A program made the position numbers and the translations under genes. A stretch of DNA of 44,671 nucleotides from positions 1-44,671 of the IMG/VR virus record IMGVR_UViG_3300005607_000006; one strand, written 5' to 3'. This DNA is from a virus. The notes under the pieces were generated by a model. It was not told where the DNA came from, ran no database searches, and worked only from the letters and a program-made list of their open reading frames with translations. Positions 4,586 through 31,716 of the stretch are shown here, piece by piece (the first letter of the stretch is position 1; each line of letters opens with the position of its first letter).

Positions 4586-6925
4586 TCAATGCAATAGCCG
4601 TCCCTGCTCCCACGAAGGTTGACAAACATAGTTTGTTTGTCTCGTGCAGGTAAACGCATTACCTGCTGGAGCAACCGTAATATCATCACTCCAGTTTGGC
4701 ACTATAAATCTTATTCCCCTCTCTGCTCCGCAGTTGTACGTCGCCTTACATGTATAGATATTTTGCTGTTGAGATGGACTCAAAGAAGGCGGGATAACCG
4801 GCGCAGGTACGTTTGACTGGATGTGATTCCCCCATGTTCCACTGCAATCGCCATCGCTAATTCTGTCGCAAGAAAATGATAGGCTGCTATCTATTACCTG
4901 CGAATTGATGCCCTGATAGCTGTATCCAATTAGGGTACCGCTCCCTGGCACGTGACATTCGTAATACGCCCTGCATGTGTAAATATTGATTGCAGGTGTG
5001 GTATCAGGCGCGGGAGTAGGATTGGGATAACCAGCATAATGCATTACTCTTACCACAGGTGGCTGTGCGGGCACAGCCGTTGATGAGAATTTGCACCCTC
5101 CCCATTGAGCAGGTGTATTGTCCGTTGCCGATGTTCCGAATCCAATTTGCTGCACATAGGCGTGCGCATCCACATCCTGCACCATAAATTGACACGCATT
5201 TACCGAATCCGGCGCAACGTCCTCATCTATGTCCATGCACCCTTCCTCAGTCCATGATGAGTCGGCGATGGCATTGTTGAGTGTGCCAAGCATGGCTACG
5301 GATTGAAGAACATTTGCCGTCGTCCATGTGAGTGTAGCCCCCCCGCCGTTTCCCTTGAGGGTGGTGTAGTGGTTCGTGATCGAGGACATGAGCTTTCTGC
5401 TCGTAACATCAAATGCCGTCGCAGGATAGACCTTAGAGAACCAAATTTCAAAAGAGTCGTCTGTGTATTCCGTCGCAGTTTGGTTCGATGCTACAGTCCC
5501 TCTCAGATCGGCATCGTTCTCTAGTAAGCACCAGCATAGCCGGTTCGGAGTTGGAGCTATGTTGTGGTGCCAGAGAACTTTAAGAGTCGTTCCGGTGTTG
5601 TTCCAGCTTGATGATTGATACCCTGTCCAATTGAAAACATTCGCCCTATTCCACGCGTATTCGTTGCAGTTACCATCAACCGTGATTGTCTGTGATCCCA
5701 GCTCAAGGATTTCGTATGAGAATGGAGTCGGGGTCGGGCTTGGTGTAGGAGTTGGTGTTGGCGTTGGCGTTGGCATTGGTGTTGGCGTTGGCGTTGGTGT
5801 TGGCGTTGGCGTTGGTGTTGGCGTTGGCGTTGGCGTTGGCATTGGTGTTGGCGTTGGCGTTGGTGTTGGCGTTGGCGTTGGAACAGGAGGCATATTCAGG
5901 ATTGCATCCTGGGAGGTTCCAGTCTGTCCGTTCTCTGTTGATTCGAAATGGTAGTGGTAAACAGTATTCGGCAGGAGGGAACCGACAATCACTGTATGTG
6001 ATGTATCGAGTATTGCATTGCCGCCGCACTGCTCATTCTGTATGGTTGTTCCTATGCAGACGTTATTAACTGTTGTTGGAATATCCGTGATCCATGAGCA
6101 TGTAGCTGATGTCGAGGTAAATACATTACACGATCCGCTTATAATCTGAGGGGTAGGTATTGGAGTTGGAGTAGGACTGGGAGTTGGAGTAGGACTGGGA
6201 GTTGGAGTAGGACTGGGAGTTGGAGTAGGACTGGGAGTTGGAGTAGGTCCGCCTATGGGTATGGCTTTTATAGCGTCTATTTTTGTTCCGCCTGATAGGG
6301 CGAAGAAGAAGCAGTGCCTCCCGGAAGGCACTACAAAGATTCGGGGGTTAATCCCTATGATACCCTTTGAGAAATTATCGTTACTTCCTGCCTCATTGAC
6401 ATAATCCCAATCATATTTAGCGCTGAATCCGTTATTGAACATTATCCACGCCTGAGCGTTATCAGGAGGCAATTTAACAGGCGCATCCACTTGAACCCAC
6501 GTGCGGTTTGCGCTCATGCTCGGCACTAAAGCTCTAACTTCAAGCTTGTAGTTATTCGCCGCGAAAGAACCACAAAGCTTGCTCTGCCCTGATGCGTATG
6601 GCTGACCAGAACCCAAATACACAACCGTACCTGAAGCAGATTGTGCGTCTGAGACGAATTGCGCCCCACCAGCTATAACAGCATCCGCAGCATTAGCGCA
6701 GTAACCATCTGCACATGGGGTGAAGGCATCCGCTTTAGAGCAATTTGGGTCGGCAGAATCTATGAGATGATTGCCATCATTGTCTATACCATCCGAACAC
6801 GTCTGGTCGCCGCCAGGACCTTCGGGGACGGATGGCACCATGGCGGAATGAATGCACGAGGCGCCGACTATAGAGCCAATAATGATGAGAAGTCCCATGA
6901 GGTACCATCTAAAGTGTTTGATCAT
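4586..6925 (-). CDS. exported fibre/adhesin with Thr-Pro linkers and CBM9-like domain
   Basis: A 779-residue protein read from the ATG at 6925 (AGGAG close upstream), just past the stop of the spike gene; longer in-frame readings overlap that gene. The N-terminus has a hydrophobic segment (YLMGLLIIIGSIVGASC) acting as signal peptide, membrane anchor or imperfect lipobox. A CSDGIDNDGNHLID motif follows, of the type seen in secreted surface proteins. Next come a beta-rich domain, a TP linker (about 225-255), a fibronectin-like section, a second TP linker (about 348-395) and a beta domain resembling DOMON/CBM9 sugar-binding modules (about 400-610). The tail is Cys-rich with repeated YTCRAYYEC-like motifs. 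It probably binds surface glycans. An export signal is unusual for a virion fibre, so it may sit on the host surface instead. Confidence 0.75.
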   Translation of the reverse strand: MIKHFRWYLMGLLIIIGSIVGASCIHSAMVPSVPEGPGGDQTCSDGIDNDGNHLIDSADPNCSKADAFTPCADGYCANAADAVIAGGAQFVSDAQSASGTVVYLGSGQPYASGQSKLCGSFAANNYKLEVRALVPSMSANRTWVQVDAPVKLPPDNAQAWIMFNNGFSAKYDWDYVNEAGSNDNFSKGIIGINPRIFVVPSGRHCFFFALSGGTKIDAIKAIPIGGPTPTPSPTPTPSPTPTPSPTPTPSPTPTPIPTPQIISGSCNVFTSTSATCSWITDIPTTVNNVCIGTTIQNEQCGGNAILDTSHTVIVGSLLPNTVYHYHFESTENGQTGTSQDAILNMPPVPTPTPTPTPTPTPMPTPTPTPTPTPTPTPTPTPTPMPTPTPTPTPTPSPTPTPFSYEILELGSQTITVDGNCNEYAWNRANVFNWTGYQSSSWNNTGTTLKVLWHHNIAPTPNRLCWCLLENDADLRGTVASNQTATEYTDDSFEIWFSKVYPATAFDVTSRKLMSSITNHYTTLKGNGGGATLTWTTANVLQSVAMLGTLNNAIADSSWTEEGCMDIDEDVAPDSVNACQFMVQDVDAHAYVQQIGFGTSATDNTPAQWGGCKFSSTAVPAQPPVVRVMHYAGYPNPTPAPDTTPAINIYTCRAYYECHVPGSGTLIGYSYQGINSQVIDSSLSFSCDRISDGDCSGTWGNHIQSNVPAPVIPPSLSPSQQQNIYTCKATYNCGAERGIRFIVPNWSDDITVAPAGNAFTCTRQTNYVCQPSWEQGRLLH
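5739..5881. repeat. 6/12-bp tandem repeat coding Thr-Pro
   Basis: About 140 bp built from GGCGTTGGTGTT-type units lie inside the adhesin gene. Read leftward they encode alternating Thr-Pro with occasional Met. The units are multiples of 3, so copy-number changes keep the frame and only lengthen or shorten the linker. Confidence 0.85.
6163..6247. repeat. 18-bp tandem repeat, 4.7 copies
   Basis: The unit GAGTTGGAGTAGGACTGG repeats exactly four times from 6163, then partly. It encodes a Thr-Pro-Ser linker in the adhesin on the minus strand. Identical copies suggest recent expansion and in-frame length variation. Confidence 0.9.
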
Positions 6926-6938
6926 GTCTCCTAGTATC

Positions 6939-9359
6939 CTAGTAGCATTTCCAAGCACCCCTGATTCTCTTTGCCCATGCTCCTGCTTTATCGCCTGAGC
7001 TTGAGCACGTCGCACCTTGCGAAGCAGGTGTATCGCAATCAGAGCAATAAATCTCGGTTCCGTTTGCAGGTGCGCCAAGTGATGCAAATGCGATAGAAGC
7101 CATAGTCAGAGAACCTGTACCGTTCATAGTGATTGTCGCTGGTGTGACGGGATTACCTGCCGTTCCCGATGGAGCAACATTAAATGAAAGGGTATCGTTA
7201 TACAGCGTAATCCATTCGGCTGTGCCGTTGTTTCTATATACGTTGTTAGTCCCATTGTAATAGGCATTATGGTACAGGATGCCCATATCCAAAACCGTTA
7301 TACTCTCTAACAGGAGATTTCCGACTATAGCCCCAGGCTGGCTATTGTTTTTTGGTATATCAAGATAGGTCGGTGTGGAGCTAAAGCTGGTCTGTCCAAT
7401 ACGGAGCTTGTGGTTGGTCGAGTCATATCCAAAATTGGTGTCAGTACCGAATTGACCCGCGCCTGAGAAAAAAGCCATAGCACCACTGGAACCAACCGAG
7501 TAATTCGTAATAAAGCTATTGGTATCAAACGCTACCACTGTTCCGCTTGCGCCTGCCCCGTTTTGCGTAGGAGCAAAATACGGGCATACACTTGTCGGGC
7601 AATCTGTATTTACCATTCTTAATGCGGAAGGGAATGTACCAGAATGGGACTCAACCCATTTTGGACCAGTATTCTGAATCGTAACATTTTCGATAGATGA
7701 ATTGGCAAAAGACTTAGTATTGTCGAGATAGATATTGGCTACTGTGGCTGGGTCGCCGCCGCCTATATTCGTATTGTACCATTTGCTTGATTTGAAGTTG
7801 CCAGTAAACTCCACCGCCTTGCTCGTATGCCCGCTCGGCGCATTCGTGGTATCGTGAATCTCAAGATTGGAGAGCGTAGAATCACTAACATTGACAACCT
7901 TAATATGCTCATCATTTGCTTCAAACGTGCAGGCGTCTAGGTGAGAACCGGAAAGCTGATTTGGAGTGCCATCTGACAACGTGCCTAACAATGCCCCAAG
8001 ATGCGCATTTTCTATTCGGCATCCCTGGAGATTTGACATCGTGCCATTCAGAATCACCGCCGTATCAAAAGAGGTGCAATCTACTCCAGTCGCCGTTACA
8101 TTGCCTTGGAAGGAAACGCAGAACCCGCCGGGAGCCATGCCTATAAGATTATTGTTTGAGTCGGCACCGAGTCCCACAAAATCATTTACTACCCATGTTC
8201 CGTTATTTCCATTTGTGAGTCCCCTGTATGCGCGGCAAAGAACATGCTCAATTGTGCCACCTACAGAGTTAAAAAATGCTATGCAGTACCCAGTCGCAGA
8301 CGTATTCTCAATAGATAGGTTGCGGATAACGGTATTGCCCCAAAATGCACCGACCTCATCCACAATCCCGTCATTAGCGATATTGCCTACAATTTTGGTA
8401 AGCTCCCTTCCAGCTCCCTCAAGCTGAAACATATTCGTAGAGACAGTAGGCTTGATTGGAGCCGAGACTTTATAAGTGCCTGGAGGAAGGTAGACATGGA
8501 CATTATTGGCTGAGGATACAGCCGCGTTTATGGCGGCAGTGTCATCGGTCACACCATCACCCTTTGCGCCATAATTTTTCACATTTACAACATCTGTACG
8601 GATAAGCTTGATTTTGACTAATGGGGTTGAGGGATTGGGCTGGCACGTTAAATTAGACGTGAAATCATCGCTTTCTATCTCAAGCGTGGTTGAGAGCGAC
8701 GCGGAACAGGAAGAGGAGCCATTTGAGATTTGATTGAATGCGTCGCCATAAATACCAAAGCTGTAGCAGTTGCCTCCCTTTGTGAAACAGATATAAGGTG
8801 TCGGGGGGTCAGTCGTGGGGTCGAGATATATTTTCCCAGGATTTCCGATCCCAGCGGCAGGAGTGCCGGAGCCTACCTGATATGTGGCTATCTGACCATT
8901 TGCACCCGCCAAATCCTCTGTCGTAAGTAAGGTCTCATCTTGTGCAACCCAGCAGGCTTGAGATGAATCGTACAGAAATTGCAGAGAGTAGTTGTTCGTG
9001 AACGTATGCGATGTACGGGCGCAAACGCCATTTCCACTAGAAATAGTTACAGTATTTGTATTGCTCTTGCCAACTATGGTAATTATCTGTCCGTCCGAGC
9101 CAGGGGAAATCTGAGGATTGCTCTGCAAAGTAATCGCTCCGCCAGAGCTTTGAATAGCGATTGTTGAGCCTTTTGTAGAGTCAATCGTAGATGATTGGTC
9201 AAGTGTCTGTGATGTTTTTACAGGACGGAGTTTTTTAATCAGAGCGTCATCAATAACAGTGGGAATCGAATAAGCCCGTTGCTCGCAGATGATAGCAGAC
9301 AGCAAAAGAATCATAAAAACTAGGAACCATAACCTATGAAATAGATTGCTTCTTCTCAT
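6939..9359 (-). CDS. pectate-lyase-fold tail spike with signal peptide
   Basis: An 806-residue protein read from the ATG at 9359, which overlaps the previous stop (ATGA). The N-terminus (MRRSNLFHRLWFLVFMILLL...) is a signal peptide or membrane anchor. The Pectate_lyase_3 signature VKNYGAKGDGVTDDTAAIN lies near residues 256-275, followed by about 300 residues of beta-helix-like repeats with many Asn/Gly turns. The family forms trimeric beta-helices that bind or cut polysaccharide and is common in tail spikes. The C-terminus (CSDCDTP...GAWAKRIRGAWKCY) resembles short Cys-containing ends seen on many phage and environmental surface proteins. The signal peptide is atypical for a virion protein. 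Confidence 0.85.
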   Translation of the reverse strand: MRRSNLFHRLWFLVFMILLLSAIICEQRAYSIPTVIDDALIKKLRPVKTSQTLDQSSTIDSTKGSTIAIQSSGGAITLQSNPQISPGSDGQIITIVGKSNTNTVTISSGNGVCARTSHTFTNNYSLQFLYDSSQACWVAQDETLLTTEDLAGANGQIATYQVGSGTPAAGIGNPGKIYLDPTTDPPTPYICFTKGGNCYSFGIYGDAFNQISNGSSSCSASLSTTLEIESDDFTSNLTCQPNPSTPLVKIKLIRTDVVNVKNYGAKGDGVTDDTAAINAAVSSANNVHVYLPPGTYKVSAPIKPTVSTNMFQLEGAGRELTKIVGNIANDGIVDEVGAFWGNTVIRNLSIENTSATGYCIAFFNSVGGTIEHVLCRAYRGLTNGNNGTWVVNDFVGLGADSNNNLIGMAPGGFCVSFQGNVTATGVDCTSFDTAVILNGTMSNLQGCRIENAHLGALLGTLSDGTPNQLSGSHLDACTFEANDEHIKVVNVSDSTLSNLEIHDTTNAPSGHTSKAVEFTGNFKSSKWYNTNIGGGDPATVANIYLDNTKSFANSSIENVTIQNTGPKWVESHSGTFPSALRMVNTDCPTSVCPYFAPTQNGAGASGTVVAFDTNSFITNYSVGSSGAMAFFSGAGQFGTDTNFGYDSTNHKLRIGQTSFSSTPTYLDIPKNNSQPGAIVGNLLLESITVLDMGILYHNAYYNGTNNVYRNNGTAEWITLYNDTLSFNVAPSGTAGNPVTPATITMNGTGSLTMASIAFASLGAPANGTEIYCSDCDTPASQGATCSSSGDKAGAWAKRIRGAWKCY

Positions 9360-9733
9360 CTTTCTATTTTCCAATGCACTATAATTGAATTGCCCAGCCC
9401 CGGAGCCGCGCTTATGTTTATCGTGAACCCCTGCAACGTGACATTCGAAGCGGGAAGTATCACGACATCGGGCGGAGTTCCCTGCCCTGCTCTTGCTCCT
9501 TGCAGTATGATGTAATCAAGGTCTGGCTGGTCGTCATATCCTAAATCAGCAAAGACCACCTCAGCCGATTGGCTGTCTCCTGTTATTTGCACAGAGCCAT
9601 TTATGGGCTGCGTCCTTTCCTCGACCACTGCGATCCGTCTGTCCAGATCGCCGAACACGTAATTAAAGAATGCCGCATTAAGCTGTGTGACCCCGTCTGT
9701 CACTTTGTACAAAATTGCTCTCAAATTTTGCAT
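9356..9733 (-). CDS. small beta-rich tail-associated protein
   Basis: A 125-residue protein. A short helical N-terminus (about 1-40, including DRRIAVVEERT) is followed by a domain rich in Val, Ile and Thr, probably a beta-sandwich (about 45-125). It lies between the large tail protein gene and the pectate-lyase spike. It could be an adaptor or a small receptor-binding domain, as with short H-type-lectin-like proteins in tail-fibre clusters. No named family was recognised with confidence. It is translationally coupled to the spike gene. Confidence 0.65.
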   Translation of the reverse strand: MQNLRAILYKVTDGVTQLNAAFFNYVFGDLDRRIAVVEERTQPINGSVQITGDSQSAEVVFADLGYDDQPDLDYIILQGARAGQGTPPDVVILPASNVTLQGFTINISAAPGLGNSIIVHWKIER

Positions 9734-17966: not shown

Positions 17967-18045
17967 AGTTGAAAAACCGGCTTAGATCAATTTGCCATGC
18001 CATTTCTATTTACCCCCGTATTTTATTGTTGAATCTACAATCCTT
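17967..18045. repeat. 79-bp perfect repeat, cargo copy
   Basis: Identical to 31680-31758. This copy holds the first 12 codons of the capsid gene plus its ribosome site, and the last 13 codons including the stop of the DUF5131 gene. It is a displaced fragment of the capsid gene start region, carried with the cargo. Identity without any mismatch suggests a recent event or an assembly join. Confidence 0.9.
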
Positions 18046-18779
18046 AATAAAGCCAGTTGAGAATTACCATTACCTAGAGGTATTTCGTCATAGGTCTGAC
18101 CATTTAATTTACGTCCGGTAAGGTCTTTTCGCACGCCACCCCATTGCTTGAAAAAGAACGGCACGTCAGCTTTACGGCATTGTTGGAGGATTGATTCTAC
18201 CCATTCTTTTCTCATAGGTCTTGCCCTTGGACCGGATTCTCCACCTACAATTACCCATTGAATATCTTTAAGGGGTAATCCATTGAGTGGGCCTATCAAT
18301 GGTTCACAGGAGAGAAATCGAATGTATGCTGGCACCTGCTGCAAGTCATACACGCGATGGAGCACTCTCATATCTTCTATACTAACCCCCATCCAAACAT
18401 TAGAAGGCCAAGGTAATTTATTCGAGACCTCACATAATCGCTTACTCCGCTTCGTGAGTATTTGAAAGATGTGTTGTGGACAACGCTCCATCGTGTCAAA
18501 TACTCGCTTAATAAACTCTAAAGGTATTTGCTCATGAAACATATCACTCATGGAATTGACAAAAATCAGGCGAGGTTGTTGCCATCGAAGTGGCAATTCA
18601 ACAATATCTTCATGTAGAGTTACAGCAAAGCCATTTTTGTATCGCTTGACTCCCATTTCCTTAAGACGCTTTGCTAATCTTTCTGCGTAGCAGTATTTAC
18701 AGCCCTGACTAACCTTGCTGCACCCAGTCACCGGATTCCAGGTTACTTGCGTCCATTCAATTTTACTATTGGTCGCCAT
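18006..18779 (-). CDS. DUF5131 (phage Gp37/Gp68) three-Cys protein
   Basis: A 257-residue protein of the DUF5131/Gp37-Gp68 family. It has the characteristic WNPVTGC-x6-C-x2-CYAE motif with Cys20, Cys27 and Cys30, and the conserved PRLIFVNSMSDMFHE, LTKRSKRL, WMGVSIE and VIVGGESGPRARPM segments. The Cys triplet is proposed to hold an Fe-S cluster in a radical-SAM-like TIM barrel; the substrate is unknown. It overlaps the TcmP-like gene by 14 nt, its usual genomic partner, and has an AAAGGAGGG site. The natural end is probably near residue 245. The last 12 residues (RIVDSTIKYGGK) come from the 79-bp capsid-leader duplicate, so the 3' end has been replaced. Confidence 0.88.
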   Translation of the reverse strand: MATNSKIEWTQVTWNPVTGCSKVSQGCKYCYAERLAKRLKEMGVKRYKNGFAVTLHEDIVELPLRWQQPRLIFVNSMSDMFHEQIPLEFIKRVFDTMERCPQHIFQILTKRSKRLCEVSNKLPWPSNVWMGVSIEDMRVLHRVYDLQQVPAYIRFLSCEPLIGPLNGLPLKDIQWVIVGGESGPRARPMRKEWVESILQQCRKADVPFFFKQWGGVRKDLTGRKLNGQTYDEIPLGNGNSQLALLRIVDSTIKYGGK

Positions 18780-19362
18780 ACCCTGTCCCTCCTTTCTTTG
18801 AGAAAGTGATTATATCACCATCCTTAATACCGGTTTTCTTGGATTCAACACGGTTAATTACTACTTCACCAGCGGCCTCCATTTGCTTAATTGCTTCACG
18901 ATAATGCTTTTCAATAAAAGGCAATCGGTAAGTTTCTTCTTGTAGCTGCAAAAATGTAATTTCCCTACCGCTTCCAACGTACGCTTTTTGCAGATATTTT
19001 ATCAACTCTTGTACTTGAGGTGTTCCGCTAAATAATACTCCCTGATGAGAAGCAGAATAATCAAATGTTCCTTCTTCGTCTCCCAGATTCCACATTATCT
19101 GCTTCATTAAGAGAACAGCCTTTAGATGGTTTGAGAAGTGGATTAAGTAATACTTAGTACGGTCACTACTGACTCTATCTTCGGGACTGAATCTGACTCT
19201 GAATTCCTTAGAATATTGAGCACCAATCTGTGATAACAGATATTCTAGAAACTGTTTTTCTCGATTTTTGCCATGCATTTTCATGAACGGCTGCATCTGC
19301 CATTCTGAATGTCCAAACATTCTATTAATGGCTTCCTTTTCCTTGGGATTGCTCAAATGCAT
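18766..19362 (-). pseudogene. TcmP-like protein, N-terminal half missing
   Basis: A 198-residue reading that matches the C-terminal half of the three-Cys-motif partner protein TcmP: SNPKEKEAINRMFGHSEW, a middle YSKEFRVRF segment and YYLIHFSNHLKAVLLMKQIMW. TcmP proteins are normally about 350-400 residues, and their N-terminal part is absent. Upstream is only 48 nt before gpX. TcmP travels with DUF5131-type proteins and is thought to act with them, but its activity is not established. This copy may be non-functional, or a minimal version reading from the ATG at 19362, which has no clear ribosome site. Confidence 0.75.
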
Positions 19363-19696: not shown

Positions 19697-20128
19697 TCAC
19701 TTCGGCTGTACCTGTCCGGGCACAATAGCCACGCTACCAAATCCAGAATTTACGATGGTTATATCATCGGTACCCGTAAATGGCTGCCCTTTGACGATGC
19801 ATGTCATCTGAATCTGCCCTGAGTTCTTCGTGGCATCGCTCGGGTCTCCTACCGCTACAACATCGCACGACATCCCATCTACAGATGGTACGGCCTGAAA
19901 AGCATCAGGATTAGAGCTTACCCACGAGGGCGGTGAGTCAAAATCAGATGGGTTAGTAGGCATAACGAACCCAGCCTGATCCTTCTCAGCTATGGTGTAG
20001 GTGATCTTTGAATTGTCTGGTAAGTTGGTCATCAGGAAAAACCTCCTATGTTGTTTATTTGCATATTGCGAAGTTAGAACTCCTATGGCAAAACCTAAAA
20101 GCAAAAACACAAGAAAAATCAGCATCAT
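19697..20128 (-). CDS. membrane-anchored Ig-like protein
   Basis: A 143-residue protein read from the ATG at 20128, which overlaps the stop of the C1 peptidase gene (ATGA). Residues 2-22 form a membrane helix (MLIFLVFLLLGFAIGVLTSQ). The rest resembles a bacterial Ig-like (BIG2-type) domain, with PSWVSSNPDAFQAVPSVDG and a later IVKGQPFTGTDDITI. Such domains often mediate weak surface binding. Coupling to the peptidase suggests the two act together, for example as a membrane-held pair. The function is not known. Confidence 0.7.
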   Translation of the reverse strand: MMLIFLVFLLLGFAIGVLTSQYANKQHRRFFLMTNLPDNSKITYTIAEKDQAGFVMPTNPSDFDSPPSWVSSNPDAFQAVPSVDGMSCDVVAVGDPSDATKNSGQIQMTCIVKGQPFTGTDDITIVNSGFGSVAIVPGQVQPK

Positions 20129-20934
20129 GTATCTGCGCTTATTACCCAAAAATCGCTGCTTAAATTTATATCGAGAATATAACGGTCGGGGAAAATACAC
20201 GAACCCTTATCGCCCCATTCTTCCCCCCATGAATTATCCACTATATACCATTGTTTATATTTCCTCGTAACCGATGTGATTGTTGGCTCATAACCTACAA
20301 TTGTCATACAATGCCCGCCAACAGGCGTATTACAGGTCAAATCCGGCATTGGCACTTCACCAGAAGTCCCTACCTCTTCAAAAGCAGCATAGACAGCGCA
20401 TCCAAACACTATAAAGAGCTTCTGTGTAAGAGCCGACATAAGCTCTTGTGGATTTGCATTGTTGATTGAATAATACTTTGTGGCTACATGCAGTTTGGCA
20501 GCCTCGTAGCAATTATCGGATGGCTTTAGAGTAAGAGCTGAATCCACATACGGCCATAGAGACTCATCGCATACTCCCACCGTTGTCAGAGCCTTGAGTG
20601 CATCCCTTACCTCTGCACCGCTATCAAAATCGGTTGTACCCTCAATGTAGCGCGTATTATAGTATTGAAACAGCCGTGATGGCATAAACTCAGGATGCCC
20701 TTCAACCCCCAGTGTGAATATATATGCTCGGAGCGAACCATGCGCCGTGCAGCTTCCAAGATCACCCTGATCCCATATCATTGGACGGGACGGATCGCCC
20801 CGCCAGTCAACCTTTTGAGGTAAATTCTGAACGATATGAGGCTTGGGGGTAAAACGCAGATCGCGCGGGTCTGGAAGAGACCGCCGCCAGCCATACTTTC
20901 GAATTTTCACAACCCGTAATTTTTCTAACGACAT
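20125..20934 (-). CDS. papain-like (C1) cysteine peptidase
   Basis: A 269-residue protein of the C1A peptidase family. The catalytic set is complete: oxyanion Gln56 in WDQGDLGSC, nucleophile Cys62, His208 in GGHCMTIVGYE and Asn234 in VDNSWGEEWGDKG. There is no signal peptide, and the short N-terminal extension (about 40 residues) has the usual LPDPRDLRF pro-like start. It has an AAGGAGA ribosome site. It lies in the tail operon between gpU and gpX, an unusual place. Possible roles are cutting a virion or host protein, or host interaction; none is proven. Confidence 0.85.
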   Translation of the reverse strand: MSLEKLRVVKIRKYGWRRSLPDPRDLRFTPKPHIVQNLPQKVDWRGDPSRPMIWDQGDLGSCTAHGSLRAYIFTLGVEGHPEFMPSRLFQYYNTRYIEGTTDFDSGAEVRDALKALTTVGVCDESLWPYVDSALTLKPSDNCYEAAKLHVATKYYSINNANPQELMSALTQKLFIVFGCAVYAAFEEVGTSGEVPMPDLTCNTPVGGHCMTIVGYEPTITSVTRKYKQWYIVDNSWGEEWGDKGSCIFPDRYILDINLSSDFWVISADT

Positions 20935-24680: not shown

Positions 24681-25997
24681 TTAACTAAAGAGCTGTGCTA
24701 AAGGAGCGATATCAAGCACTGTAAGTTCTGTGATTCTTTCCGCAGGCGGCGTAGGCGTGATGGTAAGCCTCATCGTGACGTGCCCCTGAATGACCTGTTC
24801 CGATGGATTATCTGTTGCTGTGAAATCCGCCTTGCCATAGTTGATAATTCCCGCGCCTACAAGCCCATTTAAATACGCCTGCACATCGCCTTTAAATAGC
24901 GTGAAAAAAATTTTATTTATCGGGCGGTCCAGCATAGAGAGATTTCCCTGCTCGATTGAATCCTCTATCGTGTCAAATTGCTGCCTAATTGCATAGAAGA
25001 GCCAAGGGGAAACGGTAGAAACGCTTCTATCGCCCCATACGCGGAAGCCCTGAGCGTTTATAATCGTTGTGATATTCTGAGAATTAAGGTAATTTGCCTC
25101 CGAGTCTTGAGAATGAAATGTGATGTATGGGATTGGTCTTTCAAGTCCAGTGATTCCTAGTATAACCTGATTTGACGTAGACCAGTTAAATCCTTTCGTA
25201 TTAATCGTTCTCGACATCACCCCGGCTACCCAAGGCGAGGCTGGCATAATTTCCTCAGTTTCCGATACCAGGTTCTCGTACCGGACCTGCGGGTACGCAA
25301 GAATCATACGCTGATTATCAAACTCCCCGGCATAACCAATAATGTCCGTATCCTTCCATCCAAGCTGCGAATCGGCGATTACCCTTGCCCTGAGAGACGA
25401 GGCAACGGCAAGAAGGGCATCGGCTACAGTCTTTGACGAAGAGTATCCAGGAGCTATGAGAATCTTAGGGGCCACACCGTAGAGCGAGCTTGCATCAAGA
25501 AGCGCCTTGATACCGGTTTTATTACCGTTTCCATCCACCCCACCTACAATATCAGAATCGCCAATGTCGGAGGGGCTTGGAGGGCTGCTTATAGAACCGT
25601 CATAGACATTGACAACGATAACCATTCCCACTCCATCACCTTGAGCGAATATGGCGTTTAACGCATCTGGAATAGTAAAACCTGGTGTAGAAGGTCCGAA
25701 TGTAGTGTCATCACCGTTTAGTACGAGGTATGGAGTGTTGACCGGCCCCTGAGGAGCGGTTCCCACAAGACCTATAATTGAGGCGTCAATTGTCTGTATG
25801 CCCTGGAATGTAGTGGACTCGATAAACTCAAAGCCGTGAAGGAAATCCAGACCCGCTCCGAGCTTACCCGTGCCAGCCTTAGCCACCTTCTCAAGACGTT
25901 TTTTAGCAAAGAGCAGAGTCCTCTGCTTTGCCCTTGATAGAGCCTTGAGATTTATCACCGGCTTTCTGTATTTAACCTGCGAAGATAATTCAATCAT
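24681..25997 (-). CDS. FI: tail sheath protein
   Basis: A 438-residue protein of the contractile tail sheath family (P2 gpFI-like). Residues 45-100 hold GFEFIESTTFQGIQTIDASIIGLVGTAP-type sequence (a typical beta-strand start). The conserved C-terminal half contains GFRVWGDRSVSTVSPWLFYAIR (about 320-341) and a final NPSEQVIQGHVTMRLTITPTPPAERITEL. It has an AGGGAGG ribosome site. It encloses the tube and contracts on infection. Confidence 0.92.
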   Translation of the reverse strand: MIELSSQVKYRKPVINLKALSRAKQRTLLFAKKRLEKVAKAGTGKLGAGLDFLHGFEFIESTTFQGIQTIDASIIGLVGTAPQGPVNTPYLVLNGDDTTFGPSTPGFTIPDALNAIFAQGDGVGMVIVVNVYDGSISSPPSPSDIGDSDIVGGVDGNGNKTGIKALLDASSLYGVAPKILIAPGYSSSKTVADALLAVASSLRARVIADSQLGWKDTDIIGYAGEFDNQRMILAYPQVRYENLVSETEEIMPASPWVAGVMSRTINTKGFNWSTSNQVILGITGLERPIPYITFHSQDSEANYLNSQNITTIINAQGFRVWGDRSVSTVSPWLFYAIRQQFDTIEDSIEQGNLSMLDRPINKIFFTLFKGDVQAYLNGLVGAGIINYGKADFTATDNPSEQVIQGHVTMRLTITPTPPAERITELTVLDIAPLAQLFS

Positions 25998-26990: not shown

Positions 26991-27623
26991 TTAGCTCTTC
27001 TCAATGTGCCTTCCTGTCATATCAGCAATAACTTTGCGGTCAATATCATCCACATAGAAGACATTACGTGGCTGAAGTGTAATGGATGCCTTTCTAATAA
27101 ACAGCACTTTCACCTTCCTATTTAATCCAAACTGTCTCTTTGCGCCTGACGGATCCCCCATTATTGCCCCATCGGTGAAAAATATCTTCCATCCCATGCT
27201 CTTGAAATAGTCCAGGGTTTTCCGCACGCTTCCACCGTTGGCATCGGTAATATGCTTAATTTGAGCATTAGCGGGGAATGCAAGCTTCTTTGCGCTCTGA
27301 GGCTTTATCTTACCGCCTGTCATTAGCAATTCTAAGAATTTCCCTCGTTTGCTTCCTATTACCGTCGTCCTATCATTATCTGTTTCCTTATGAGTGATCG
27401 AGGCAATAAACTGTCCGCTATCCTGCAATGGTTTATTCCCTTTCTTTGTCGCAATAGTAGCAGGGGAGTTCGGGGCAAATTTCCCTTCGCGGATTTTCCT
27501 CTGCGTTGAGCTAACCATATATGCGCCGATTTGTTTCATCAAGGGCGCAGTATTCTGAAGGGATATAAGCTTTTCCCGGAGCGTTGGAATTTCATTTCTG
27601 AGAACTGCAAATTTTATAATCAT
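26991..27623 (-). CDS. virion morphogenesis protein (gpS/gpG family)
   Basis: A 210-residue protein of the phage virion morphogenesis family (P2 gpS, Mu gpG), which completes the tail and allows head joining. The ATG at 27623 has AAGGA upstream; a longer reading gains 16 residues without support. The family region TQRKIREGKFAPNSPATIATKKG lies near residues 41-63, and LQDSGQFIASI near 66. The protein is longer than P2 gpS (150) and has a basic C-terminal half. Confidence 0.8.
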   Translation of the reverse strand: MIIKFAVLRNEIPTLREKLISLQNTAPLMKQIGAYMVSSTQRKIREGKFAPNSPATIATKKGNKPLQDSGQFIASITHKETDNDRTTVIGSKRGKFLELLMTGGKIKPQSAKKLAFPANAQIKHITDANGGSVRKTLDYFKSMGWKIFFTDGAIMGDPSGAKRQFGLNRKVKVLFIRKASITLQPRNVFYVDDIDRKVIADMTGRHIEKS

Positions 27624-27779
27624 CAGCTTCCTTAAATCGACATTGGGTACGGATTTAAGGAGGTGGATCATCTCTTCTTTTGTGTTTTTTGCATATCTTA
27701 TTCCATCTGCTGGCAGATCGCCTCACGTATAGCAAGCAAAGCACGCTTATCCAGCGAGCTGGTCTGTGATGGTATCCAT

Positions 27780-29402
27780 CTAAAAACTGATAGATCCAAG
27801 CGCCCTCCTCCAGAGATACGAAATAAACATATCCGATTTTAATAACCCTTCCTCATCCATATCAACTATGATTTTAGTTGCTTCACGGCTTCGGAATGTG
27901 TTATTCGACAACATGAAGCAATAGGAATTGAGATTAAAGAGTTTCTCGTGCTCCTCTTCCGTCCGCCTGATTGCGAATTTCTCGCTCTCGTGCCACCCCA
28001 CCGGCATTATGGTCTCAGTGGGCAGGAGATGGTATTTCCCTGCATTTTGCTCAATAGCAATATTCATGGGAATGGACGCAAGGTCTAGCCATTCGAGTTT
28101 CTTGCGAGACCTGAGTTTGTCACAAACCATTTGATAATGAGTATTTATGACAGTGCCGCCGGGAACGGATGCCATCAAATTGCAGCTCATATAAGCCTGA
28201 GGCTCCCTGTATCCCACAAACCCATGATTCTCCGCAAGTTGTAGTATTGGAGAAAGTCCTTTCATCACAATACAGTCCGCATCAATGTAGAGTCCACCAT
28301 AATACTTTAGAAGGTAGGCGCGAATAAAATCCGATTTATGGTTCATTGCAAGAGAATCAATTGGAATATCGCGGTCATGCCTCCATAGCAAATCAAATGA
28401 CCTTCTGTCAAGGAGTCGCACATTATTATTATGGGCGTGGATGGTTTTGATGCAAAGCTTGATGTATGCAGGCATCAGTCCTTCCCAATAGAGCCAGATT
28501 TTAGGAGACATAGAGTACTTCTCATTGTCTGACACCTTAGCGATCTCAGCTCTGGCCACCTCCTGAGTGTGTCGGACGGCGCTATCCTCTTCATAATTAT
28601 TTCCCCTCTCCCTGATAAGCGATCTGAGAGGATCTTTGATTGTTCGTGGAACTGGATGAAGCCAGAAGACATCAGGACGCCTGAAGGCTGTTGCCATTTC
28701 TTCGGCCGTATATCCGGCCCGGTATCTTACATAATCATATGAGCACGGGCTATGAAGATATTTGAGGCCGGAAAGCGCGATAAGGGTAGGGAGCACAATT
28801 TCTTCCGTCGCCCAAATTTTGGATTTGGACATAATTTCTTGAAGCTGGCCATCCTTGAACATTTCAATGAGAACCTTTACGCCATCTTTACTGAAAATAG
28901 TGCTTGGCCAATATGCCCATGAGACAAACTTGCGCTCGCCATCCTTGAATCTCTTTAAAAAGGGCCTCCATAATTCTATTTCTTTTCTTGCATTCGTAAC
29001 GGGAGAGACGATAGAATCAATGGGCTGGGTGCCTGAATAGTTCCCCAGCATCCCAACATCTATTTTATCTGAGAGGAAATTCTCTATATACATTACATAC
29101 CCAGAGCGGATGAAGAGCTGGTCCGAGTCCACGATGGTCAGCGTATCGAATTCAATATTATCAAGTGCAAATTGCATTGAATCAAGGGCAAACTTATGAA
29201 GGGTTCCCCACTTCTGCGGATGCGGATGCGGATGCATGATTATCCCATCATCGGCAAAGGGGAGATTAACCACGCTTACATCATTAGAGCCCCGGTAGAG
29301 AAGAATCGCCGAAGCCGGGTCATAGTATCTAAGATTGCGCGCGAGGTCAGCAACGCAATCTGCCGCTTCGTGAACTAACACGCAGTGAATATTTCGTAGC
29401 AA
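27780..29402 (-). CDS. two-domain glycosyltransferase
   Basis: A 540-residue protein with two parts. The N-terminal half (about 1-290) has a nucleotide-sugar-type fold with a D-x-D at residues 92-94 (TIVDSDQLF). The C-terminal half (about 300-540) matches Caps_synth/Gly_transf_sug glycosyltransferases: PKIWLYWEGLMPAYIKLC and MNHKSDFIRAYLLKYYGG followed by the metal-binding DAD (IDADCIV). It begins inside the end of the GT2 gene and has the same direction. Likely substrates are phage proteins or host surface sugars; which is not known. Confidence 0.8.
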   Translation of the reverse strand: MLRNIHCVLVHEAADCVADLARNLRYYDPASAILLYRGSNDVSVVNLPFADDGIIMHPHPHPQKWGTLHKFALDSMQFALDNIEFDTLTIVDSDQLFIRSGYVMYIENFLSDKIDVGMLGNYSGTQPIDSIVSPVTNARKEIELWRPFLKRFKDGERKFVSWAYWPSTIFSKDGVKVLIEMFKDGQLQEIMSKSKIWATEEIVLPTLIALSGLKYLHSPCSYDYVRYRAGYTAEEMATAFRRPDVFWLHPVPRTIKDPLRSLIRERGNNYEEDSAVRHTQEVARAEIAKVSDNEKYSMSPKIWLYWEGLMPAYIKLCIKTIHAHNNNVRLLDRRSFDLLWRHDRDIPIDSLAMNHKSDFIRAYLLKYYGGLYIDADCIVMKGLSPILQLAENHGFVGYREPQAYMSCNLMASVPGGTVINTHYQMVCDKLRSRKKLEWLDLASIPMNIAIEQNAGKYHLLPTETIMPVGWHESEKFAIRRTEEEHEKLFNLNSYCFMLSNNTFRSREATKIIVDMDEEGLLKSDMFISYLWRRALGSISF

Positions 29403-30064
29403 CTGAAATCCTCTCCCATAATCTTTTTTGTCTCGTCAATCGGAATTGCCTTCCACCATGGACCATTCACCTTCTTTGCATTGCTGTTTGAGCTGTGAAT
29501 CATGTGGACGGCAAAGGCGGGGTTCTCTAATATCTTGATTCTCTCTAGCGGAATCCCCCATACAAATAATGCATCCATACCGACATCTATATTCTTGAAG
29601 CGATGGCCTTCCCAGAGCGATTTCCTATAGCATAGCGAGCTGCCTGAGAGCCAGAGCCTCTGCGTATCTGGATAGACGTATTGATAAGCCCCTCCGGTAC
29701 GCAGATCATAGTAATAGAGCCTATTAATTCCGCAGATGCCTTTATTCTTTTCTCTCAATGCTTCTACCTGATATGAAAGGCGCCAAGGAGCATACCAATC
29801 ATCATCATCAAAGTGGGCAATTATTTCGCCGTTTGCATATGCGCATCCTAAATTCAGCTTTACTCCAAGGGAGATTTTCCTATTAAAATAATAAAACTGT
29901 ATACAGTCATCGGACGGGATTAAATCGCGGACGCAATCAGAGCCATCGTCAATGATTATTAATTCTTTATTCGGATAGGTTTGAGAAAAAAAATATTTAA
30001 GCGCCAAGGGGATGAATCGCCTTCTATTAAAAGTTGGCATAAGACAGGAGACGAGAGGGTACAT
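29375..30064 (-). CDS. GT2-family glycosyltransferase
   Basis: A 229-residue protein of glycosyltransferase family 2 (GT-A fold). The N-terminal VSCLMPTFNRRRFIPLALKY is typical, as are Asp40 in IIIDDGSD (donor binding) and the metal-binding Asp run HFDDDDW at residues 85-90. It has no membrane segments and is short for the family. It overlaps the next glycosyltransferase gene by 28 nt, so they are co-expressed. It lies between a head connector gene and gpS, which is unusual for a phage. Confidence 0.85.
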   Translation of the reverse strand: MYPLVSCLMPTFNRRRFIPLALKYFFSQTYPNKELIIIDDGSDCVRDLIPSDDCIQFYYFNRKISLGVKLNLGCAYANGEIIAHFDDDDWYAPWRLSYQVEALREKNKGICGINRLYYYDLRTGGAYQYVYPDTQRLWLSGSSLCYRKSLWEGHRFKNIDVGMDALFVWGIPLERIKILENPAFAVHMIHSSNSNAKKVNGPWWKAIPIDETKKIMGEDFSCYEIFTAC

Positions 30065-30070
30065 TAGCGA

Positions 30071-30568
30071 TTACCATGGCCAAAACCAATCATCTTCCGG
30101 GAAGCCCGTCACACCGCCCCTTGCAATGAAAATATAGGGATTCTCATTGAAGTTATGCCAGCTTTGACTGCCCTGTATTACGCTGGCGACAGAACTGACC
30201 TTCTCCTCAACCTTTTCTTCCGCGCCTTCACCTGATACTCCACCCTCAAGCATAGCGCGGAGCGAATCAATCGCATCCTCTCTATTTGCTGCAACCTTCT
30301 CGCCCTGGTCCATATGGTCGAATAAATACCATTTCGTAAGCGGAATAAGCACGGAGGTCTTGAGGTCATCCACCCATTTTGTTACGGCATCGGGATTGTT
30401 CTGAATCGCAGGAGGATATGGATAGGCTCCATATTTTGTGAGACGGATTCTCACATACTTCTCGGCTTTGTCTATCGCTGTGTCTTTATAATTTTCATAA
30501 TCGAGATTCGTTTTCCACCATGACGAGATTTCATCGTCCATATCTACCGCATTTAACCATTCACCCAT
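30071..30568 (-). CDS. head-tail connector-like protein
   Basis: A 165-residue protein; the ATG at 30568 has GGAGAAA upstream. The all-helical N-terminal half (EISSWWKTNLDYENYKDTAI) and the Ala/Glu-rich middle are like DUF1320/Gp36-type head-tail adaptors, usually encoded after the capsid gene of Mu-like phages. The C-terminus is Trp/Phe-rich (DDWFWPW). It comes after a terminator-like hairpin. Function is inferred mainly from position. Confidence 0.6.
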   Translation of the reverse strand: MGEWLNAVDMDDEISSWWKTNLDYENYKDTAIDKAEKYVRIRLTKYGAYPYPPAIQNNPDAVTKWVDDLKTSVLIPLTKWYLFDHMDQGEKVAANREDAIDSLRAMLEGGVSGEGAEEKVEEKVSSVASVIQGSQSWHNFNENPYIFIARGGVTGFPEDDWFWPW

Positions 30569-30596
30569 TTTATTTCTCCAACTTGTTATTAGCATC

Positions 30597-30638
30597 AAAA
30601 AGGGCAGCGAGACAAGGAGGTCAAATCGCGCTGCCCTT
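30597..30638 (-). terminator. rho-independent terminator after the capsid gene
   Basis: The stem GGGCAGCG / CGCTGCCC at 30602-30609 and 30629-30636 (two extra A-T pairs) has a loop of 19 nt and is followed, on the minus strand, by TTTTT. It could lower expression of the connector and later genes compared with the capsid gene. Confidence 0.7.
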
Positions 30639-30678: not shown

Positions 30679-31716
30679 TTATGGCGGGCTTGTAGGAGCC
30701 GTGACTATGGCGTTACAAACAGCGCCCGGAATGGAGATGGGAAGAGGCTTTGATTTAGAAATGAGCTTAAGCCCAGAGGGATCATCTTGGAGAATTGAAT
30801 TTGTCCAGAATGGAAGAGGCTCTGGGCCAGCCTTGAGGTCGTCAATCATGCAATAATATAACCACCAAGGGGCATCCTGAGCAATTACGGTTATCCCGTT
30901 TGAAGGAATCGCATCAACCCATGTGTTACTAAAATAGTCCCAATACCGCGCGACAACATACTCAAGAAAATAGCCGCCAATTCTGATACCGTTTTCGGTT
31001 ATTGATCCGGTCACAATCACTTCGCCGCTTGCTCCCATTGTGCTGAAAATCGGGGTGAGTTTATCTACAAGCGCTGTATACGTTTCTGATCCTATGTAAT
31101 ATTTAAACATATTCCCATACCCATTCTCGTATATGAGCCTTGTGATGGCTATGAGATCTTTGATGATATGGGAGAGTTTTGTATTTGGATCATCCCAGAG
31201 CGATGCAGGCTCAAAACTTAGAGGCCCTAGTGCACCATCGTTCGTAAAATCCACGACGTAGTGGTCATAGCCGCCTTCCACCTTCAAGGCATAATCAATC
31301 TTGCCGGTAATCGCCTGTGTGCAGAGGGCTTCGGTTGTTCTCTGAGTCGCATAAAGCATCTCCTGGAGTTTCTGGTCGCGCCACATCTCTAGCCGTATGC
31401 CGGTGAGGGACTGAAGGTCGGCAAGGTCTTTGCCCTGTATAAAATCCGAGAGGTCTATTCCGCGCGGCTCGATAAATGAGATGTCGCGCCTCCCCTGCAC
31501 TAGAGGCAGAGCCGGCGCACCACGTTCAACAAGAGGCATATTTTTAAAGAGTTTCTTCCAGATGTCCGCGCCTACAAAGGCAAATGGATGATTTACTCTT
31601 CTTGCGGGCGGATATATCTTATCCATTATGGGCGTGATAAGAGGCGGAATATTCTGAATTCTTGGCCCTACCGTTTCCCAGTTGAAAAACCGGCTTAGAT
31701 CAATTTGCCATGCCAT
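30679..31716 (-). CDS. major capsid protein, lambda gpE family
   Basis: A 345-residue capsid protein of the Phage_cap_E family (HK97 fold). A DISFIEPRGIDLSDFIQGKD-like region lies near residues 78-97, and the C-terminal half contains TENGIRIGGYFLEYV and WDYFSNTWVDAIPSNGITVIA. The length equals lambda gpE (341). It is preceded by a D-type decoration protein and a protease, the lambda order. GGGGGTAAATAGAA upstream is a good ribosome site. Its first 12 codons and leader are duplicated 13.7 kb away. Confidence 0.9.
   Translation of the reverse strand: MAWQIDLSRFFNWETVGPRIQNIPPLITPIMDKIYPPARRVNHPFAFVGADIWKKLFKNMPLVERGAPALPLVQGRRDISFIEPRGIDLSDFIQGKDLADLQSLTGIRLEMWRDQKLQEMLYATQRTTEALCTQAITGKIDYALKVEGGYDHYVVDFTNDGALGPLSFEPASLWDDPNTKLSHIIKDLIAITRLIYENGYGNMFKYYIGSETYTALVDKLTPIFSTMGASGEVIVTGSITENGIRIGGYFLEYVVARYWDYFSNTWVDAIPSNGITVIAQDAPWWLYYCMIDDLKAGPEPLPFWTNSILQDDPSGLKLISKSKPLPISIPGAVCNAIVTAPTSPP

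Follow-up and report, generated by a model that had tools for sequence, protein, structure and literature searches.

A three-domain glycosyltransferase module of contractile injection systems in a temperate myophage, a candidate for particle glycosylation

Virions of mycobacteriophages, Che8 and Rita among them, are glycosylated by phage-encoded glycosyltransferases (GTs), in the account of Freeman et al. 2023 given in PMC11256854. The locus described here is alike in that its GTs are phage-encoded and plausibly act on virion proteins of the same infection. It differs in enzyme type and in position: its three domains (GT2, GTn and GTc) are of a type found with extracellular contractile injection systems (eCIS), and their genes separate the head genes from the tail genes; in Maravista, by comparison, the GT genes sit near the 3′ end of the genome. 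Each of the three domains has its closest homologues in gene clusters of Afp/PVC/AlgoCIS-type eCIS, with the module beside Pvc16 and sheath genes or at the operon's other end, whereas the DNA analysed here belongs to a phage, as its terminase, portal and capsid genes show. GT modules go unmentioned in the eCIS literature that we examined, the Rho-modifying Afp18-type toxin excepted; a 2019 eCIS survey fell outside that scope, so absence from the literature as a whole is not shown.

At the level of fold, GTn resembles family GT14 (core-2 GlcNAc transferase and xylosyltransferase 1, the latter of which modifies Ser in protein), with TM-scores of 0.58–0.64 over the query but 10–14% sequence identity. 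GTc shares its GT-A fold and DXD motif with the effectors YeGT and PaToxG and with Och1-like DXD enzymes (PF04488), from which it differs both in sequence and structure (16–18% identity, TM about 0.49) and in being an apparently cytosolic domain, stand-alone or fused, that neighbours methyltransferases and other GTs.

We analysed the full 44,671 bases of IMG/VR record IMGVR_UViG_3300005607_000006, referred to below as the window. On the evidence of the surrounding genes, the window is a temperate Mu-headed myophage: its plus strand encodes an integrase and a LexA-like repressor, and Pfam and PHROGs matches place terminase, Mu portal, Mu F, head maturation protease, decoration and major head genes on one flank of the enzyme pair and Neck1/gpS, sheath and tape measure genes on the other (Table 1). 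The original prediction of two overlapping GT genes between head and tail genes is borne out by these flanks and by the ORF calls. Its expectation that they are made late, with virion proteins, agrees with their place in the late structural gene block. It had also proposed that the pair interrupts a connector–gpS order, which stands on the gpS-like side; the connector label on the other side is positional, since that gene has no family match. Two other features of the tail region were recorded: at 18006–19362 (minus strand), DUF5131 (5e-99; a radical SAM mobile-pair model also matches) adjoins a GMT-wHTH protein, a recurrent mobile pair with no assigned function, and a papain-family cysteine protease gene lies among the tail genes at 20125–20934 (minus strand).

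Table 1. Features of the window at and around the glycosyltransferase genes.
Feature	Position	Strand	Evidence
GT2 glycosyltransferase, 229 aa, first domain of the module	29375..30064	-	PF00535 5.5e-20
Two-domain glycosyltransferase GTn + GTc, 540 aa	27780..29402	-	ORF call; PF05704/PF04488 in C-terminal half; tblastn
GTn domain, residues 1-267 approx.	28600..29402	-	41-52% identity alignment; AlphaFold2 fold
GTc domain, approx. residues 285-540	27780..28547	-	PF05704/PF04488; AlphaFold2 pLDDT 88.3
Major head protein, upstream flank	30679..31716	-	phrog_29 5.1e-14
175 aa protein, connector by position only	30071..30598	-	No Pfam or PHROGs match
Tail completion/Neck1 (gpS-like), downstream flank	26991..27671	-	phrog_222 7.4e-16; PF05069 5e-5, just below cut-off
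Contractile tail sheath	24681..25997	-	PF04984 6e-16; phrog_23 5e-80
Exported protein with Thr-Pro linkers	4586..6925	-	ATG at 6925 after AGGAG; N-terminal hydrophobic signal; 86 residues in TP-rich linkers

The first enzyme belongs to family 2 (72.4 bits against PF00535, cut-off 23.3) and carries its metal-binding DxD motif as HFDDDDW, with D86, D88 and D89 invariant across 15 sequences. Its ORF overlaps that of the second by 28 nt, both on the minus strand, and the 540 aa ORF starts at a TTG inside this overlap, with a GGAGAGG ribosome-binding site upstream. The C-terminal half of this larger enzyme matches PF05704 (2.2e-8) and PF04488 (3.1e-7). This domain, GTc, is thus of the Caps_synth/Gly_transf_sug type, has the DXD motif YIDADC and is homologous to stand-alone eCIS-linked GTc, with 32–38% identity; its AlphaFold2 model matches the folds of YeGT, PaToxG, SetA, GT8 and Och1 enzymes.

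The N-terminal half, GTn, gave no Pfam match at E≤1, and membership of the GT14 sequence family was not found. Aligned with 16 bacterial relatives (17 rows, 41–52% identity), the phage copy keeps every invariant column; the invariant DxD motif VDSDQL and a conserved WATEE core are both retained, identifying it as a homologue of the eCIS-linked GTn. Its AlphaFold2 model (pLDDT 85.5) has as best PDB folds core-2 GlcNAc transferase (C2GnT-L) and human xylosyltransferase 1, both GT14 enzymes of GT-A fold (Foldseek E 4e-8, probability 1.00). On this model GTn is a second GT-A domain with a GT14-like fold, and the earlier description of the pair as a GT2 and a two-domain DXD enzyme holds. A joint alignment of the N and C fragments (A4) was misaligned and was discarded; matches of an iterated GTn profile at residues ~640–740 of eCIS proteins fell within the methyltransferase domain and were ignored. 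Signal peptides and membrane segments are absent from both enzymes, which look cytosolic and soluble from their sequences.

A scan with the GT2 alignment, using one genome per species, found 79 bacterial loci. The closest eCIS-linked GT2 domains are 51–59% identical to the phage enzyme and come mostly from Bacteroidota, with Bradyrhizobium, Ktedonobacteraceae and Desulfobacterales also represented. GTn adjoins the bacterial GT2, as does GTc in about ten loci (tblastn), and genes adjoining eCIS are 41–52% identical to the N-terminal half and 34–40% identical to the C-terminal half of the phage enzyme. Pfam matches next to the module include Pvc16_N (2e-31), sheath, gp19 tube (3e-46) and FkbM methyltransferase. 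When 76 host genomes were searched for the tube family PF06841, GT2 lay ≤41 kb from a tube gene in 51, mostly at 5–8 or 20–28 kb, with contig identity inferred from coordinates, so that single short-contig cases may be wrong; a tube gene was absent from 21, mostly those with weaker GT2 matches. Module clusters fetched whole held the eCIS sheath family in 22 of 22 cases and the tube family in 21 of 22.

Linkage was also assessed in an independent sample of Chitinophagaceae and Myxococcia genomes, taken with no selection by GT2. Among 119 Chitinophagaceae genomes, 38 have a tube gene and 6 have GTn; all 6 of the latter have both, on the same contig 21–26 kb apart in 5, including all 3 non-seeds. 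GTn was found in 17 of 147 Myxococcia genomes, and the 13 non-seeds among these all carry tube genes, 20–38 kb from GTn on the same contig in 11. Pooled, 14 of the 16 non-seed genomes have GTn and an eCIS tube gene on one contig, 20–38 kb apart, a closeness far beyond chance because the genomes span 5–14 Mb. Judged by this linkage, the GT2/GTn/GTc module belongs to eCIS. It is missing from many eCIS clusters and so is dispensable to the machine. Two Myxococcia genomes carry decayed remnants of GTn (G254:C1:3522135-3522515 and G293:C17:30251-30529), which indicates that the module has been lost as well as gained.

The domains are fused in different orders: GT2 | GTn-GTc in the phage, GT2-GTn-methyltransferase | GTc | FkbM in Bacteroidota and GTn-methyltransferase-GT2 in Myxococcota. 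Such permuted fusions suggest that the three domains act in one pathway. Three placements recur: at the operon head, before Pvc16, an unnamed 350 aa protein and sheath (11 loci); at the operon end, after a DUF6519 fibre-like gene; and after DUF4157-type proteins. The phage order of GT2, GTn-GTc, tail completion gene and sheath resembles the operon-head placement. Many eCIS copies include a methyltransferase of sugar type (PF13578 or FkbM); none was found in or beside 27780–30064. The phage module also lies outside any eCIS operon: terminase, Mu portal, Mu F and major head genes in the window make it a phage-borne relative and not part of an eCIS. At six eCIS loci (L033, L035, L051, L053, L054 and L055), a gene that by eye is NusG/RfaH (UpxY)-like, an antiterminator, directly precedes the operon-head module.

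In a tree of 142 GT2 domains (quick search, SH-aLRT without bootstrap, some long branches), the phage enzyme falls within a 31-row clade (SH-aLRT 99) whose other members are 28 eCIS-linked domains and two further copies from genomes; the GT2s of viruses almost all fall outside it. The simplest reading is that the module moved from an eCIS lineage into the phage, a direction that we infer. Recent acquisition as judged by GC content was rejected, the module genes not differing from their neighbours. One further contig (L002) encodes identical proteins; it is perhaps from the same sample and probably not independent. That possible shared origin leaves an assembly chimera at the module–phage junction as a formal alternative, against which the gene overlap, GC and reading frames argue. 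At loci L176/L177, a provirus abuts that end of an eCIS cluster which carries the module, and eCIS–phage exchange may have taken such a route.

Among other phages, tblastn with the whole protein found no GTn in 50,697 GenBank records, and none was seen in 29 other GT2-bearing virus records. IMG/VR yielded only the identical contig and L176, in scans with short patterns that can miss divergent copies. We rejected L176 as a second GTn phage: its GTn lies in the host eCIS flank, with a DUF4157-like neighbour, beside the provirus. When viral contigs were searched with single proteins, the matches were further copies of this phage and, beyond those, just two distant GT2s. Distant GT2s (30–44%) are common in unrelated phages. 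Directly upstream of such related phage GT2s lies the major head gene in 19 of 48 cases and a connector, tail-terminator or virion structural family in ~11 more, about 30 of 48 together (approximate, as counts were tabulated per family); downstream lie methyltransferases (9 match PF08241) and other GTs. Glycosylation cassettes thus recur in the head-to-tail region of phages. Four unrelated phage contigs (L013, L015, L018 and L022) have, right after capsid/connector genes, a GT2, mostly a second GT of VIIPSKN type, and a SAM methyltransferase. In L005 (9111–10714), a small virion-region protein with a terminal Ser/Thr run, two genes upstream of the GT2, is a candidate acceptor.

eCIS have no capsid and package no DNA. 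The particle's own proteins would thus be the most economical target of an eCIS-type module, and a role limited to capsid or DNA is unlikely for it. The module contains no flippase, lipid-carrier enzyme or membrane protein, which, with the lack of signal and membrane segments, makes direct cytosolic glycosylation of a particle protein the best explanation. We put at roughly even odds (about 0.5) the reading that the phage shares with eCIS a three-domain glycosylation module, likely eCIS-derived, that builds a glycan on a contractile-particle protein. The module would have reached the phage from an eCIS gene cluster; its enzymes would be made late, in the cytosol, alongside virion proteins, and by their predicted activity would assemble a short glycan straight onto Ser/Thr (or Tyr) residues of a structural protein before the particle is put together. 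The acceptor would most likely be a tail or fibre component, favoured because the tail is common to myophage and eCIS, and the benefit may be shielding, stability or receptor binding.

The modelled fold of GTn, nearest GT14 and its protein-Ser-modifying xylosyltransferase 1, counts for protein glycosylation. Against it we count that the modelled GTc folds like enzymes by which toxins modify host proteins, that Ser/Thr/Pro linkers do not co-occur with the module, that GTn is present in only one phage plus the probably non-independent contig, and that many eCIS clusters do without it. The prediction that the phage glycosylates its own virion or fibres gains from the late block, the phage GT2s recurring beside capsid genes and the eCIS module; its Thr-Pro fibre component does not. 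Self-glycosylation of the particle is the best reading, unproven as it stands.

A serious rival acceptor is the capsid, which the module would coat with a glycan shield, as in some mycobacteriophages. Capsid glycosylation is reported for Che8 and Rita (PMC11256854), the major head gene is the most frequent upstream neighbour of related phage GT2s, and here it lies 0.6 kb from the module; with the nearest relatives of all three domains in capsid-less eCIS, we consider this unlikely. Slightly less likely is alteration of a host cell-surface glycan, excluding superinfecting phages or protecting an eCIS producer from its own particles. PF05704 and many GT2s do work in capsule or O-antigen synthesis, and RfaH/UpxY-like genes precede some eCIS copies; both enzymes look soluble, the module lacks the membrane and lipid-carrier functions named above, and its genes sit in the late structural block, not among the lysogeny genes. 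Less probable still, the GTs are cargo that eCIS carry into target cells, with the phage copy a borrowed effector: GTc's best folds are the effectors YeGT and PaToxG, and in several loci the module has neighbours of DUF4157 type, which are often associated with eCIS cargo, yet three GT domains with sugar-type O-methyltransferases look like a biosynthetic pathway, delivery and processing domains are absent, the operon-head position recurs, and a phage would have no evident use for such cargo. Glycosylation of phage DNA, for which phage enzymes are known, is very improbable given that eCIS package none and that no hypermodified-base synthesis genes were seen in the window.

Within the self-glycosylation reading, the proposed Thr-Pro substrate fares poorly. 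The predicted Thr-Pro protein is real: one protein of the window has two TP-rich stretches, 86 residues with 34 Thr. Its export signal sets it apart from the apparently cytosolic enzymes, and eCIS with the module show no excess of such linkers: two Ser/Thr/Pro-rich stretches were counted in 713 kb of clusters with it against two in 392 kb of clusters without. Among about 170 other loci, one (L139) has a strongly Thr-Pro-rich protein; a shorter one is present in the L176 eCIS. These counts do not support a Thr-Pro substrate, although this phage may yet use one. A pectate-lyase-fold, tail-spike-like protein next to the Thr-Pro gene (6939–9374, minus strand) likewise has a strong export signal, which is unusual for virion proteins, and the two may be exported adhesins of the lysogen.

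More broadly, and a little short of even odds, eCIS of several phyla and this phage may be glycosylated particles, O-methylated in bacteria, with a horizontally moving GT2-GTn-GTc cassette decorating a contractile-tail component, an undescribed layer of eCIS. GTn is defined here as a GT-A domain family that tracks eCIS and for which Pfam lacks a model, and the distribution of the module points to concrete strains and genes in which the idea can be tested. If the reading is true, virion glycosylation would reach beyond a few actinobacteriophages and take in contractile tail machines generally; for eCIS, studied as protein-delivery particles, a glycan of their own would matter for stability, for targeting and for visibility to the immune system.
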